NCBI RefSeq assembly: GCF_024207115.1
Contig: NZ_CP100128.1
Location: forward strand, 4,278,001-4,342,000
DNA: 64,000 nucleotides
DNA from: Chromobacterium sp. IIBBL 290-4
GTDB lineage: Bacteria; Pseudomonadota; Gammaproteobacteria; Burkholderiales; Chromobacteriaceae
Direction: 5' to 3'
Shown here: piece after piece, positions 6,017 to 11,080 of the stretch
Position numbering within the stretch: the first letter of the stretch is position 1
How the letters are laid out: the number at the start of each line of letters is the position of its first letter
Position numbers and translations under genes: made by a program
Notes under the pieces: model-generated
What the model was told of the DNA's origin: nothing
The model's input: only the letters and a program-made list of their open reading frames with translations
Databases searched by the model: none

Positions 6017-7195
6017 ATGGAAGTAGCAATCGTAGCCGCGCAACGCACCGCCATCGGCAGCTTCGGCGGCGCGCTGGCCAAGATTTCCGCGCCGGAACTG
6101 GGCGCCACCGTGATCAAGGCGCTGCTGGAGAAAACCGGCGTCAAGCCGGAAGACGTCAGCGAAGTGATCCTGGGCCAAGTCCTCACCGCCGGCAGCGGCC
6201 AGAACCCGGCCCGCCAAGCGCTGATCAAAGCCGGCCTGCCGGTTTCCACCCCGGCCACCACCCTGAACGTCGTCTGCGGCTCCGGCCTGCGCGCTGTCCA
6301 CCTGGGCGTGCAAGCCATCCTGGCGGGCGATGCCGACATCGTCATCGCCGGCGGCCAGGAAAGCATGTCCTTGTCCCCGCATATTCTGCCGGGCTCGCGC
6401 GACGGCTTCCGCATGGGCAATGCCCAGTTGGTGGACACCATGGTCAACGACGGCCTGACCGACGCCTACAACGCCTACCATATGGGCATCACCGCCGAAA
6501 ACGTGGCCGCCAAATACGGCATCAGCCGCGAAGAGCAGGATGCCCTGTCGCTGCAATCTCAACAGCGCGCCTCCGCCGCGCAAAAGAACGGCAAGTTCAA
6601 AGATGAAATCGTTCCGGTGCTGGTGCCGCAGCGCAAGGGCGATCCCGTCGCCTTCGCCGACGACGAGTTCATCAAGCACGACGCCAGCGCCGAAGGCCTG
6701 GGCAAACTGCGCGCCGCCTTCAAGAAAGACGGCACCGTCACCGCCGGCAACGCCTCCGGCATCAATGACGGCGCCGCCGCCGTGCTGTTGATGTCCGCGC
6801 AAAAGGCCGACCAGTTGGGCCTGAAGCCGCTGGCCATCGTCAAAGGCTATGCGCTGACCGGCTGCGAGCCGGAAATCATGGGCATAGGCCCGGTTTCCGC
6901 CACCCGCAAAGCTGTGGCCAAAGCCGGCTGGAAAGTGGAAGACCTGGACCTGGTGGAAGCCAACGAAGCCTTCGCCGCCCAAGCCCTGGGTGTGGCGCGA
7001 GAGCTGGGCTGGAGCGCCGACAAGGTCAACGTCAACGGCGGCGCCATCGCGCTGGGCCACCCCATCGGCGCCTCCGGCTGCCGCGTGCTGGTGACGCTGC
7101 TGCATGAAATGCAGCGTCGCGATGCCAAGAAGGGCTTGGCCACGCTGTGCATCGGCGGCGGCATGGGCGTGGCGCTGGCTGTCGAACGTCCGTAA
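6017..7195 (+). CDS. phaA: acetyl-CoA acetyltransferase (beta-ketothiolase)
   Basis: 392 residues, the normal length for biosynthetic thiolases. It condenses two acetyl-CoA to acetoacetyl-CoA, the first step towards poly-3-hydroxybutyrate. The acyl-accepting Cys87 is in [12 protein letters not shown], His348 in [14 protein letters not shown] and the proton-abstracting Cys378 in [10 protein letters not shown], all at canonical spacing. A good ribosome site (AAGGAGATACAC then ATG) fixes the start. It lies directly downstream of phaC and ends at a strong terminator, so phaC-phaA forms a two-gene unit. The reductase phaB must be elsewhere, as reported for Chromobacterium phaCA loci (from memory). 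Confidence 0.96.
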
Positions 7196-7218
7196 GCCTG
7201 CCTGCCATTGCCCATATC

Positions 7219-7249
7219 AACCCCGCCCTTGAGGCGGGGTTTTGTTTTT
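7219..7249 (+). terminator. Rho-independent terminator of phaC-phaA
   Basis: AACCCCGCC (7219-7227), loop CTTGA, GGCGGGGTT (7233-7241), then a T-rich run to 7249. The inverted-repeat element at 7255 is inserted just behind it, and its target duplication begins inside the T-run. Confidence 0.92.
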
Positions 7250-7254
7250 CGCGC
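7247..7254. repeat. left target-site duplication
   Basis: TTTCGCGC immediately outside the left inverted repeat is repeated exactly at 8861-8868 immediately outside the right one. The match extends to 11 bp (TTTCGCGCCGC) because the next three bases coincide with the element end. Confidence 0.8.
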
Positions 7255-7276
7255 CGCTTTGAGGTAGCACGTGCAC
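7255..7276 (+). repeat. left terminal inverted repeat (22 bp)
   Basis: It begins CGCTTTGAGGTAGCACGTGC. Compared with the right end it differs only at positions 14 (C/T) and 17 (G/C). Confidence 0.82.
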
Positions 7277-7312
7277 TCGTCGGAGAAGCTAACTTTTCTT
7301 ATGCTTTTCTGT

Positions 7313-7768
7313 ATGAGTGCACGAATCCCTTCCTCCCTGAACTGGCTGATCAACAAACGCGCCAGGCTCCTGAGTGACTTGCAGCAGTTAGAGGAGTCTC
7401 TCTCAGTGCAGCGTCAGTCGTTAGCGGCTGACGTTCAAAAAGCCGAACAAGCTTTGGAGATGGCGCGCCATCGACTCCTGACTATGCCCGAGCACCTCGC
7501 AAGGGTGGTTGAAAATGCAAGGGCCAATCTAGCCGCAGTTGACGCTACCATTCGGCTGCATGAAGTGCAGATCGATCCGGAGATCATTCCACCTATCCGC
7601 AGTCATACGAAGAGAAGATGTTCCCGTTACGGCAACATGACAAGGATGGTCATCAATGTCCTACACGAAGCACAAACGACTCCCTTGACGACAGGCCAAA
7701 TAGCGCAGTTAGTAGGTCCTGCCATGGGTGTCGAATTAGGCGGGAATGGGAGATTTCAGGAGCAGTAG
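7313..7768 (+). CDS. hypothetical coiled-coil protein with C-terminal HTH-like segment, probably 3'-truncated
   Basis: 151 residues from an ATG at 7313 (MSARIPSSLNW); an in-frame ATG at 7271 would start inside the inverted repeat. Residues 15-75 (KRARLLSDLQQLEESLSVQRQSLAADVQKAEQAL) are strongly heptad-like, then comes a conserved-looking HEVQIDPEIIPPIRSHT, then RMVINVLHEAQTTPLTTGQIAQLVG, which resembles a winged-helix start. The protein stops soon after (GRFQEQ), where such a domain would normally continue, so truncation is likely. I do not recognise a named family; similar N-terminal coiled-coil plus HTH proteins occur on mobile DNA. It is the only long uninterrupted gene in the inverted-repeat element. 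Confidence 0.6.
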   Translation: MSARIPSSLNWLINKRARLLSDLQQLEESLSVQRQSLAADVQKAEQALEMARHRLLTMPEHLARVVENARANLAAVDATIRLHEVQIDPEIIPPIRSHTKRRCSRYGNMTRMVINVLHEAQTTPLTTGQIAQLVGPAMGVELGGNGRFQEQ

Positions 7769-8212
7769 CTTGCTTCCTTAAACACTTTTTACCCATTTAT
7801 CATCAACGACATGATACTCATCATTGCCTAGAGAAATCCATTGCTGCAATGGAAAATTTGCCGTGATGCGGCGAAGCAGACAGCATCCATCCATGGCAAC
7901 CGATCCTTTCCGCTAAAACCTGTACGTAGATAAACGGCACCAGAGGTGCCAAGGATCAGCGCCGGCAGCCGTGACTCGCCCCAGGTAATCCCACAAACCG
8001 CAAGCTCACCGGCTGAGCACCGAGTTTCAAACAATTCCCTGGCAATACACTGATTCAATATGGTGATACCCTGATGGACAGGTTTCCGTCACCTGCCGCA
8101 CGCGCCTTTTGAGGTACGACGAAGACGGGGCAATCACGCCCTCCCAAATCATGTTTGATCCCTTGGGTGGCCCGCAAAGCGTGCACCGGACCTACACTCG
8201 AAAGAGATCGAC
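7769..8212. other. interior of the element without a convincing gene
   Basis: About 440 bases. On the minus strand a 76-codon reading (7828-8058, TTG start, no Shine-Dalgarno) has a protein-like composition (GELAVCGITWGESRLPALIL, GAVYLRTGFSGKDRLPW) and continues open upstream of the TTG, so it may be a gene fragment; I do not recognise it. On the plus strand nothing is convincing. Confidence 0.4.
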
Positions 8213-8365
8213 ATGGATACCTCGACATTCAAGGTGTTCGCGCAGCGCTTGCGTGCACATCTCCAACAGCATTGCACCCCCTTGCAGCATGGTCAGGCAC
8301 TTGATCTGGTTGCGTCCATCGCGGGCCTATCCCAAGGCGCTCGATGGTTGTTCTCGCCGCCCTGA
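8213..8365 (+). pseudogene. 50-codon fragment resembling the N-terminus of plasmid-type glyoxalase-superfamily proteins
   Basis: The ATG at 8213 is preceded by AAAGAG and reads MDTSTFKVFAQRLRAHL, then HGQALDLVASIAGLS, then stops at 8363-8365 after ARWLFSPP. The pattern of an amphipathic helix followed by H-x-QALxLxA is the N-terminal helical motif (usually SHSQALELIA) that I know from accessory glyoxalase-superfamily proteins several hundred residues long. Here the remainder is missing and the frame runs into the ORF at 8344, so this looks like a decayed gene. The identification is from memory of the motif and is tentative. Confidence 0.45.
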
Positions 8366-8685
8366 GCGCAGCGGCTGTCCCGAACGGAAAAAGCCCGGCC
8401 AAAAAGCTGCTGAAGCTGACAGAGCCGAAGTATTCGACGGAGCTGGCATACAACGCACTTGCCGATCTGCGCTCACTGGAAGTCCTGATGCACCTGTTCG
8501 CGTTGTTCCCGAGCGAACGGATTCTGCTGTGCACAGGAGACAAAGATTTGGCGCTTTTCTGGGCTGGAATCAGGGCGTCAGACTTCGCTTGGCAGGGTAC
8601 CTACTTCCAATGCAAGTTTTCCCCTGTAGAGGCCTTGCTGCCCAATGTGACGCAGGAACGATTGGCATCGTACTTCAGCGGCTAG
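8344..8685 (+). CDS. short ORF with PIN-like C-terminal motif, probably a gene remnant
   Basis: 113 residues from an ATG at 8344; the frame is closed by a stop at 8302-8304 upstream. The part AYNALADLRSLEVLMHLFALFP followed by RILLCTGDKDLALFWAGIR resembles the second half of PIN-like nuclease folds, where D-x-R-x-L-E and T-G-D-K supply acidic residues. The first acidic motif of a PIN domain is absent, so either the N-terminus was lost or the likeness is accidental. It overlaps the end of the fragment at 8213-8365 by 22 bases in a different frame, consistent with a frameshifted or fused ancestral gene. A hairpin terminator follows 90 bases downstream. Confidence 0.4.
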   Translation: MVVLAALSAAAVPNGKSPAKKLLKLTEPKYSTELAYNALADLRSLEVLMHLFALFPSERILLCTGDKDLALFWAGIRASDFAWQGTYFQCKFSPVEALLPNVTQERLASYFSG

Positions 8686-8774
8686 GGCACCCCTCGGAAA
8701 ACTCAAGCACTGCGCACGCTGATGGGGCAAGTACAGCTCACAGGCCCGCGAAGACCTGAGTCATCATGAAATGA

Positions 8775-8811
8775 AAATGGCGCGCCATGAGAGTAATCTG
8801 GCGCGCCATTT
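8775..8811. terminator. 13-bp perfect hairpin near the right end of the element
   Basis: AAATGGCGCGCCA (8775-8787), 11-base loop, TGGCGCGCCATTT (8799-8811). It is symmetric, with an A-run before and T-rich DNA after, so it can end transcripts from either side and would insulate the GGDEF gene. Confidence 0.75.
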
Positions 8812-8838
8812 CTGCTTGTTTACTAGCTGGTTTTTAAT

Positions 8839-8860
8839 GTGCAGGTACTACCTCAAAGCG
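8839..8860 (-). repeat. right terminal inverted repeat (22 bp)
   Basis: Read on the minus strand it begins CGCTTTGAGGTAGTACCTGC, matching the left end at 20 of 22 positions. Confidence 0.82.
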
Positions 8861-8868
8861 TTTCGCGC
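8861..8868. repeat. right target-site duplication
   Basis: TTTCGCGC, identical to 7247-7254. Joining 7254 to 8869 would restore an uninterrupted phaA-to-GGDEF intergenic region. Confidence 0.8.
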
Positions 8869-8956
8869 CGCGTCACATAAAAAGTTGCACACCCCGGCGG
8901 CAAGCCGGAGCGCCCGCGCCTAAAATGACAATCACTATCAGGCTCAAGGACCGCAT

Positions 8957-11080
8957 ATGCGCCGGTTTTTCGCCAAACGCGCCGGGCGCCCTTTCCGGCT
9001 CGTGCCCTACTTTTTCCTGCTGTCGCTCTTGCTGATGGGCTGCGCCACCGCGCTGATGGCCGGCTACCTGCGCCACTACTCCGCCGAGCAATTGCTGAAG
9101 CTGGAAAAAAGCCGCGCGGCCTCCTTGGTGGAAATGTTCGAAAACTCGCTCTGGAACGACTTCCGCCCGCTGCTGCCGCTGGCCAATGACGCCAATCGCT
9201 TGCAGCAACACGCGCGCCAGGCTCAATTGAGAGAGCGGGTGATCCGCCTGATGCGCGATACCGGCGTGATCAAGCTGAAGGTTTACGCGCTCAACGGCCG
9301 CACGCTGTTTTCCACGGACGCAGTCCAGATCGGCGAAGACGAAAGCGATAATGAGGGCTTTCAATCGGCGGCGGCGGGAGCGCCGGCCAGCGAGTTGGCC
9401 CACAGCCACAGCATAGACGCCTTCGAACGCACGCTGACCGAACGCGACATCATCTCGACTTACGTGCCCGTCCATGGCCCCGGCGGCAAACCGGAAGGCG
9501 TGCTGGAAATCTATCTGGACGCCACGCCCTTCATCGTCGACACCGATGCGCAACTGCGCTGGCTCACTCTGGCCATCTGCGCGCTGATGATCGTGTTATT
9601 TGTCGCCCAGATGCTGGTGGTGCGGCACGCCGGCCGCATCATCGATAAACAGGCCAGATCGCTGGAAGACGCCAATCAAGAATTGGACCAACGCGTATCC
9701 GAACGCACCCGCGAACTCAGCGAGGCCAATGCCCGCCTGGAGGACGAGGTGATTGAACGCCGCCGCGCCGAGGAAACGCTGGACCGGCTGGCGCATCACG
9801 ATCCCCTGACTGGCCTGCCCAATCGCCTGATGTTCCAGCAGCAGCTGGCCGAGGCCCTGAGCCGGGCCGCGCAGCGACCGCATGGCCTGGCGCTGCTATT
9901 CATCGATCTGGATCGCTTCAAAGATGTCAATGACACACTGGGGCACTATGCCGGCGACCAGTTGCTGACATCGGTGGCCGCCCGCTTCTCCGCTCATGTG
10001 CGCCCAGCCGATCTGCTGGCCAGACTGGGCGGCGATGAGTTCATCTGCCTGCTGGACAAGCTGGCCAGCCGCGATGATGCCTCCAGCGTGGCAAACAAAC
10101 TGTTGGCTCTGTTCGAACAGCCTTTCCTGTTGAATGGCAACGAGATTTATTTGTCCGCCAGCGTGGGCATCAGCTTTGCCGCCCAGGACGGCATGGATGC
10201 CGACACGCTGCTGCGCGCCGCGGACTTGGCGATGTATCAGGCGAAAGCAGATGGCCGCAACCGCTGCCTGTGCTATACGCCGCACATGTCCGCCGCGGTA
10301 GCGGAGCGAGTGGCGATTGAAAATCAATTGCGCCAAGCGATTGAACGGCGGGAAATCGAAGTGCACTACCAGGCCAAGGTCGACTCTGCCAGCGGCCTCG
10401 TCATCGGCGCCGAAGCGCTTGCCAGATGGACATCGCCGACCCTCGGCCCCGTCAGCCCGGCCCGCTTCATTCCGCTGGCGGAAGAGAACGGCCTGATTCT
10501 GCCCCTGGGCGCGCTGGTGCTGGAGCAAGCCTGCGCCCAACTCGCCGACTGGCAGCGCGCAGGCTTTGCCCTGCCCGCGCTGTCGGTCAATCTTTCCGTC
10601 CGCCAACTGGCGCAAGCCGACCTGCCGATCTTGGTCGGCGAACTGCTTCGCAAACATGAGCTGCAACCGGCCATGCTGGAGCTGGAAATCACCGAAAGCG
10701 TCATCATGGCCGCAGACAATGCCGTCGCGGCCTTGAACGCGCTGCGCCGGCTTGGCCTCAAACTATCCATTGACGATTTCGGGACGGGCTACTCATCGCT
10801 GGCCTATTTGCGGAACCTGCCTGTCCAAACCCTAAAAATAGACCGAAGCTTTGTGCAAGACATCGGCGCCGGCGGAGAGGCCATCATCCAAACCATCATC
10901 TCGCTGGCCAATAGCCTGCATCTGGACACTGTCGCGGAAGGGGTGGAAACGCGCGGGCAGGTCGACTTCCTGGCCAGCGCAGGCTGCGTGGCGATTCAAG
11001 GCTATTACTACAGCCGACCAAAAGCCGCGCCAGCCTTCCTTGAGGACTGGCAGAACCGCGCCGCCAACATGCTGACGTAA
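8957..11080 (+). CDS. membrane-bound GGDEF-EAL protein (c-di-GMP synthesis/turnover)
   Basis: 707 residues. A first membrane helix (about 17-38), an extracytoplasmic region of about 160 residues and a second helix (about 200-222, WLTLAICALMIVLFVAQMLVV) are followed by a coiled coil and two catalytic domains. The GGDEF motif is intact at 358-362 and has the RxxD inhibition site five residues before it (RPAD, 349-352). The EAL domain has EAL at 486-488, NLSVRQL, LEITES, DDFGTGYSSLAYL and KIDRSFV, so phosphodiesterase residues also look intact. The protein could therefore be bifunctional; the net activity is not predictable. AAGGA lies 6 bases before the ATG. It is flanked by the inverted-repeat element upstream and transposase debris downstream. 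Confidence 0.93.
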   Translation: MRRFFAKRAGRPFRLVPYFFLLSLLLMGCATALMAGYLRHYSAEQLLKLEKSRAASLVEMFENSLWNDFRPLLPLANDANRLQQHARQAQLRERVIRLMRDTGVIKLKVYALNGRTLFSTDAVQIGEDESDNEGFQSAAAGAPASELAHSHSIDAFERTLTERDIISTYVPVHGPGGKPEGVLEIYLDATPFIVDTDAQLRWLTLAICALMIVLFVAQMLVVRHAGRIIDKQARSLEDANQELDQRVSERTRELSEANARLEDEVIERRRAEETLDRLAHHDPLTGLPNRLMFQQQLAEALSRAAQRPHGLALLFIDLDRFKDVNDTLGHYAGDQLLTSVAARFSAHVRPADLLARLGGDEFICLLDKLASRDDASSVANKLLALFEQPFLLNGNEIYLSASVGISFAAQDGMDADTLLRAADLAMYQAKADGRNRCLCYTPHMSAAVAERVAIENQLRQAIERREIEVHYQAKVDSASGLVIGAEALARWTSPTLGPVSPARFIPLAEENGLILPLGALVLEQACAQLADWQRAGFALPALSVNLSVRQLAQADLPILVGELLRKHELQPAMLELEITESVIMAADNAVAALNALRRLGLKLSIDDFGTGYSSLAYLRNLPVQTLKIDRSFVQDIGAGGEAIIQTIISLANSLHLDTVAEGVETRGQVDFLASAGCVAIQGYYYSRPKAAPAFLEDWQNRAANMLT

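Follow-up and report, generated by a model that had tools for sequence, protein, structure and literature searches.

A structured leader RNA carried by a transposase-less, very probably IS1595-derived element behind phaA in Chromobacterium sp. IIBBL 290-4

Introduction

For transposons of the IS1595 family, 8-bp target duplications are given as usual (PMC8101967), and passenger genes, including transcription regulators, are reported for the ISNha5 group of this family (PMC11891212). The present analysis concerns an element of 1,606 bp (positions 7255-8860) behind phaA in a stretch of 64,000 nucleotides from Chromobacterium sp. IIBBL 290-4 (contig NZ_CP100128.1, positions 4,278,001 to 4,342,000; hereafter the window, by whose numbering positions are given), which very probably derives, minus the transposase, from a cargo-carrying transposon of the IS1595 family, of a group that combines an accessory gene with a convergent ISXO2-like transposase. 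Members of the ISNha5 group measure 3.4-7.9 kb and have ends starting with CGGnnTT; the likeness of this group to the window element, namely an IS1595 affiliation with passenger genes, is one of description. No paper linking "IS1595 family" with Chromobacterium was found in the literature searched.

The structured leaders in Rfam 15 (riboswitch-like elements of 5′ untranslated regions) are conserved pseudoknotted RNAs located just 5′ of one gene family. The cargo of the window element contains an RNA of this kind, for which, unlike those leader families, no credible covariance-model match was obtained. Judged from its sequence relatives, it is likely to belong to an undescribed RNA family preceding genes with the PF20066 (Glyoxalase_8) N-terminal domain, and to act as a cis-regulatory switch (a candidate riboswitch or a site for the N-terminal domain).

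Results

The ends of the element are 22-bp terminal inverted repeats (TIRs), complementary at 20 of 22 positions and flanked by exact copies of the 8-bp sequence TTTCGCGC (Table 1). Both the repeats and the duplication, reported in the initial annotation, are real, and their occurrence beyond chance supports the footprint of DDE (Asp-Asp-Glu) transposition that had been read from them. Even when up to 3 mismatches were allowed, a consensus of the two ends occurred at only these two sites of the window (0.01 expected in shuffles). The insertion point is the terminator tail behind phaA, again as proposed earlier; the T run directly precedes it and the terminator was left whole. In most of the related genomes read, a hairpin of different sequence followed by a T run was found 3′ of phaA. 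The G+C (guanine plus cytosine) content was 0.537 in the element, against 0.624 in phaC-phaA and 0.623 in the right-hand gene. Searched by tblastn with four transposase sequences of the IS1595 family (of which one covered a C-terminal part), the element yielded no transposase (best E 0.084), in agreement with the initial annotation.

The gene at the left end, previously taken as intact, proved to be truncated at its C-terminus. Nine homologues of its 151-aa product were obtained at E ≤ 0.001 among 78 candidates, and all were 180-205 aa long; the closest, P0001 (190 aa), was 98% identical over 96% of the query, and in the alignment the window copy departed from it after about residue 144, so that the last ~40 residues were missing. 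Chromobacterium is the source name of both P0001 (Chromobacterium sp. Rain0013) and P0002 (C. violaceum). An AlphaFold2 model of P0002 (12 alignment rows; mean predicted local distance difference test score 81.2, predicted template modelling score 0.40) contained a long coiled coil (residues 21-96) and the helices and strands of a winged helix (120-190), and the best Foldseek matches of this model were mostly Z-alpha and other winged-helix domains (best E 0.011, none at or below 0.001). The full-length accessory protein is thus predicted to combine a coiled coil with a winged helix, of which the window copy would lack the third helix and the wing. The accessory frame is open from a GTG at 7271 (GTG CAC), inside the tail of the TIR, and the starts of P0002 (MHSS) and P0003 (MHSP) both match the window frame when it is begun there, which suggests that the genes of P0002 and P0003 also abut such an end.

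Relatives of the accessory gene were located at three loci in the genome contigs collection (L058 of Betaproteobacterium AAP99, L059 and L060 of Rhodanobacter) and on plasmids in five Xanthomonas records, of which two near-identical ones (L061 and L062) were read. A class-wide search returned 3 of 369 genomes, namely the own genome, G425 (L083) and G398 (L084, a weak match). Among 61 family genomes, relatives of P0002 were found in the own genome only; the truncated window protein had no match on plasmids, and the accessory protein had no confirmed relative in viral contigs. An IS1595-family (ISXO2-like) transposase adjoined the accessory gene in convergent orientation in five of six loci (L058, L059, L060, L061 and L083), L061 and L062 being taken once and L059 and L060 sharing a block that is 94.8% alike; beside the weak match in L084, none was found by tblastn. 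The transposase gene followed the accessory gene directly in four relatives, and one open reading frame (ORF) lay between them in L061. The transposase frames were 378 (L058), 406 (L059), 402 (L060) and 183 aa (L061) long, with that of L083 split into two frames, and the three transposases submitted to Pfam matched PF12762 with 110 (L058), 124.5 (L059) and 105.8 bits (L061).

The left ends of these relatives, CGCCATAAGGTAGTTGATGCCCC (L058), CGGTAAGCGGTAGCTGATGCAC (L059 and L060) and CGCTAATTGGTAGCAGAAGCCCC (L061), were aligned by eye with the window left end CGCTTTGAGGTAGCACGTGCAC, and all have the layout CGS-N5-GGTAG in common. The most complete counterpart is a transposon on the Xanthomonas plasmid pXCV183 (NC_007507.1; L061 8943-18244), which has an accessory homologue at its left end as the window element does, TIRs of the same CGS-N5-GGTAG type at both ends (by eye; CGCTAATTGGTAGCAGAAGCCCC and CGCTAATTGGTAGCAGATGCCCC) and an exact 8-bp duplication of its own, GTTGTGTG, on both sides. 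Unlike the window element, it is 9,302 bp long and has an IS1595-family transposase, whose frame is only 183 aa and lies beside an IS1646 copy, with more insertion sequence (IS) copies inside; its accessory protein is just 28% identical to P0002. The accessory proteins of L058, L059 and L060 are 26-31% identical and the left ends of these loci are similar to that of the window element, whereas no right TIR was recognised in them; at L083 no right end was recognised either. By its left end and by the transposases beside its relatives, the TIR, which the initial annotation could not assign to a named family, can thus be linked to IS1595.

The distribution of the element was surveyed in the genus with one genome per species (19 genomes, own included). 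Only one copy was present in the own genome, and a search with positions 6900-9300 found the interior in 1 of 19 genomes (own) and phaA matches in all 19. The right flank of the window was found behind phaA in none of the 18 other genomes (~1.5 kb read in each), so no empty site was readable. A 16-bp TIR pattern (up to 3 mismatches) occurred at 32 places in the own genome against 80 for a reversed control, and was perfect only at the two ends of the element; 13 stretches with this pattern in viral contigs were regarded as likely chance, and the element had no match in phages.

PF12762 was detected in 3 of the 19 genomes. All 18 matches in the own genome had the same E value (6.4e-13) and a 327-aa frame, and they appear to represent one IS other than the parent of the window element. 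This resident IS (at L065, L066, L068, L070, L073 and L074, among other places) is ~1,031 bp long, and five copies were 99.8-100% identical to L065. The ends of six copies were read: the TIR was GGCTATGTCCCAAT and an exact 8-bp duplication was present at each, mostly of A+T-rich targets; the IS has apparently been active recently. Like the putative parent it has a PF12762 transposase and makes 8-bp duplications, but its TIR is unlike that of the window element, and tblastn with the L058 and L059 transposases did not reach L065 at E 1e-3; hence no helper transposase is seen in the genome now. Miniature inverted-repeat transposable elements (MITEs) are short, multicopy, without coding capacity and equipped with the TIRs of a resident IS; the window element, at 1.6 kb, with cargo, in single copy and with a TIR unlike that of the resident IS, is not one. 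As a separate observation in the genus, 12 of 19 genomes contained an inverted-repeat unit of ~102 bp (GCTAACAAAACC...GGTTTTGTTAGC) whose ends were exact, the own genome not among them; a copy lies just behind phaA in G003 (L004 508-620) and a variant behind phaA in G014 (L020 1848-1958), and one G012 match had a different interior.

The gene fragments that the initial annotation described as cargo were identified as the head of a Glyoxalase_8 gene and the C-terminal piece of another gene, and the relatives of both lie on plasmids. The Glyoxalase_8 piece matched PF20066 with 24.4 bits (cut-off 23.7; E 3.2e-5) and was 56% identical to residues 1-39 of a Massilia plasmid protein. The second fragment was 59% identical to residues 283-386 of a Sphingopyxis plasmid protein of 401 residues, and 23 proteins, the window's own among them, matched its product; a PIN label for this gene, carried by one relative, was dropped, as Pfam found no PIN domain in that relative (P0027) or in the two plasmid proteins of L077 and L078.

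Of four DNA matches on plasmids, two had their start in the region preceding the Glyoxalase_8 gene, and a block ending just 5′ of the start codon was shared by six sequences (the window, plasmids of Massilia, Rhodanobacter, Paraburkholderia and Burkholderia, and one IMG/VR contig). Support for a structured RNA in this block came from a test of 18 pairs in 12 sequences, which added nine distant sequences and whose rows and columns were chosen by hand from loci with the motif already seen, stems D and E being left out as not alignable. In this test 94.9% of the cells were paired against 73.8% in shuffles, 43 cells carried two-sided changes against a shuffled mean of 12.0, and the covariation score was 0.598 against 0.174 (sd 0.029) in shuffles and 0.152 for the best slide; compensatory changes therefore exceeded the controls. 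The G321 copy has GCTTGC:GCAAGC in place of GCACGC:GCGTGC in the pseudoknot, and GTGCA:TGCAC in place of CCGTC:GACGG in stem B.

The structure itself, of 27 pairs with two pseudoknots, was drawn by eye from the first five sequences, and because the five-sequence test used these same sequences, it leans towards that structure. It gave 98.5% paired cells, with two unpaired cells in stem E, and four two-sided changes in four helices against at most one in slid versions. On one of five measures it spoke against the leader: further pair types (8) were no higher than in shuffles (mean 9.2; 500/500 at least as high). Folding of single leader sequences was uninformative (z -0.15, -1.66 and -1.25), and a consensus computed by RNAalifold on the five sequences, a different fold with a positive covariation term, was not adopted.

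A regular expression of conserved letters only found the core in 20 of 41 loci (16 distinct sequences), including the six seed sequences; fourteen later-found sequences were added, and L105 and L109, which were anchored on a GAA thought to be wrong, were counted as they fell. The two variable pairs of the pseudoknot, which are the only test of that helix because the expression fixes part of it, matched in 16/16 sequences (four combinations) against 120/240 mismatched partners. When the better of two offsets was taken, every pair of stem B formed in 13/16 against 20/240. An earlier expression, in which the pairing was a requirement, matched at 18 of 36 PF20066 loci but in part picked a wrong partner, and was not used as evidence. 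Among 20 loci examined by script, 16 had the core together with GGTGAA; in each of these an open frame begins 95-138 nt from where the GCCGC core starts, and the products of these 16 frames have the same N-terminal domain (by eye).

A covariance model of the leader without pseudoknots (R1) matched 5 of 399 order genomes at E ≤ 0.001. Two of these, the own genome and G321, were convincing, the RNA of G321 preceding a PF20066 gene; the matches in G020, G234 and G338 look like coding sequence or partial matches and were taken as chance, and short DNA matches in G090 and G243 (only L081 of G243 read) were set aside likewise. PF20066 occurred in 7 of 300 order genomes and in 48 of 398 phylum genomes, own included in both. 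R1 found the leader in 3 of 6 PF20066 loci of the order at E ≤ 2e-6, and in 15 of 30 of the phylum at E ≤ 0.1 (further PF20066 matches had no locus). Within the genus it was present in 1 of 19 genomes, the own; 5′ of PF20066-gene start codons it was found across the phylum, in several of its families and classes, and the leader loci include, besides the window, L075, L076, L085, L086, L087, L093, L094, L095, L111, L113 and L122-L125. In two of these loci (L075 4131-7977 and L087 1766-4787) the PF20066-type gene with its leader was seen near a gene for a DNA polymerase of the Y family, which is annotated as such in L075 and was read from an ORF in L087.

Against Rfam 15, positions 7200-8900 of the window gave five weak matches at E ≤ 1, none of them over the leader, and 11 leader loci gave no match at E ≤ 0.5. 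The L085 leader, searched at E ≤ 5, gave two matches, both unrelated and confined to its 3′ half, at E 1.4 and 1.7 and well short of their gathering scores. A literature search, which is not proof of absence in print, found no description of such an RNA.

The remaining features are included in Table 1. A palindrome, ATGGCGCGCCAT, was also noted three times inside the element (7460-7471, 8777-8788 and 8798-8809, one of the three with one mismatch), and the hairpin near the right end is built from the second and third copies.

Table 1. Positions of the features described in the window.
Feature	Position	Strand	Remarks
phaA intrinsic terminator	7219-7249	+	GC hairpin and T run; tail is the insertion site
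Target duplication, left copy	7247-7254		TTTCGCGC, 8 bp
Left TIR	7255-7276	+	CGCTTTGAGGTAGCACGTGCAC
Accessory gene, C-terminally truncated	7313-7768	+	151 aa; homologues longer
Stretch within the element	7769-8060		G+C 0.49; minus-strand ORF 7828-8058, no homologue in one protein search
Structured leader RNA	8081-8199	+	upstream of truncated Glyoxalase_8 gene
Leader stem A	8081-8083/8091-8093		
Leader stem B	8086-8090/8124-8128		5′ strand within loop of stem A
Leader pseudoknot	8098-8103/8179-8184		
Leader stem C	8104-8107/8112-8115		
Leader stem D	8165-8169/8195-8199		
Leader stem E	8171-8174/8187-8190		outermost pair not formed in window copy
Glyoxalase_8 (PF20066) gene head	8213-8329	+	N-terminal 39 codons, cut off at 8329
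C-terminal fragment of another gene	8329-8685	+	frame different from Glyoxalase_8 piece
GC-rich hairpin near right end	8775-8811		arms AAATGGCGCGCCA / TGGCGCGCCATTT
Right TIR	8839-8860	-	CGCTTTGAGGTAGTACCTGCAC, read inward on minus strand
Target duplication, right copy	8861-8868		TTTCGCGC, 8 bp, exact match to left copy

Discussion

The element has the 8-bp target duplication of the IS1595 family and TIRs that, by eye, are related to those of the accessory-gene group; since no PF12762 transposase was found in it, it is filed as an IS1595 derivative and not as a complete member. The parent would have carried an IS1595 transposase between TIRs like CGCTTTGAGGTAG and would have been flanked by 8-bp duplications. 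Using DDE chemistry, an IS1595-type transposase would have placed the element in the terminator tail behind phaA, producing the duplication now seen. The simplest history would then comprise two deletions in a larger cargo transposon, both deduced from the borders of the fragments. One, starting inside the accessory gene at about 7760, would have taken its C-terminus together with the transposase gene; as the transposase adjoins the accessory gene in the relatives, this one deletion would explain both the truncation and the missing transposase. The other would have created the fusion at 8329 between the Glyoxalase_8 head, along with its leader RNA, and the tail of another gene.

Several observations weigh against an IS1595 origin. 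No transposase remnant was detected in the element by tblastn, and none of its close relatives could be read as a complete element, the 98% identical homologue P0001 being known as a protein only. The right ends of L058, L059 and L060 were not found, an inverted-repeat search having given noise, and the block common to L059 and L060 stops without a recognisable TIR. That the TIR resembles those of the relatives is a visual and not a statistical judgement. The 22-bp TIR consensus had no exact match in the genome contigs collection, so there is no sister copy to confirm the borders of the element.

Whether the transposase was lost before or after the insertion is a narrower matter. As the initial annotation proposed, the element may have been transposase-less on arrival and mobilised in trans, by a transposase of the IS1595 family that either was encoded elsewhere and has since disappeared or resided on the donor replicon; this course, which is a variant of the IS1595 derivation and not its opposite, is somewhat short of an even chance. 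Both TIRs and the duplication are intact despite the scrambled interior, and the plasmid location of the cargo relatives points the same way. Against it, the element is single in the genome, no second copy with the same interior was found, and the 18 resident matches apparently belong to one other IS, whose ends (6 copies) do not resemble the element TIR. Since its ends look intact, a matching transposase could still move the element in trans; past movement of this kind is possible, and loss of the transposase after insertion fits the data as well.

Far less probable is an element of another DDE family with 8-bp duplications, such as IS66, ISL3 or IS256, that captured an IS1595 accessory gene. 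The absence of an internal transposase for direct assignment leaves room for it, but the accessory gene stands directly at the same end as in the IS1595 relatives, the TIR itself resembles the ends of those relatives, and the upstream frame begins within the TIR tail, in keeping with the N-termini of P0002 and P0003. That the inverted repeats arose by chance in an ordinary intergenic island is hardly credible, for although a scan of the window for inverted pairs (22 bp, at least 20/22, 300-5000 bp apart) gave five registers at three places, two of them elsewhere at similar distances, an exact 8-bp direct repeat lay outside this pair only. The pair is also like the left ends of four relatives that have the same gene next to them, and the DNA between its repeats is lower in G+C and was not found in the 18 other genus genomes.

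The IS1595 derivation, as preferred here, implies that this group may be recognisable without a transposase, through termini of the CGS-N5-GGTAG type and an accessory gene that is fixed at one end. Of greater importance than the transposon itself is the leader RNA. With its stem nested in a loop and its second, long-range pseudoknot, it recurs before proteins of different length and body that share both the RNA and the N-terminal domain, for which reason a cis-regulatory switch is the likely function; the window copy, standing before a gene that is cut off, is probably a relic. The leader covaries strongly and has no credible Rfam match; it is a concrete candidate for a new class of regulatory RNA, and it would offer a direct handle on what PF20066 proteins, whose N-terminal domain is of unknown role, sense or bind.

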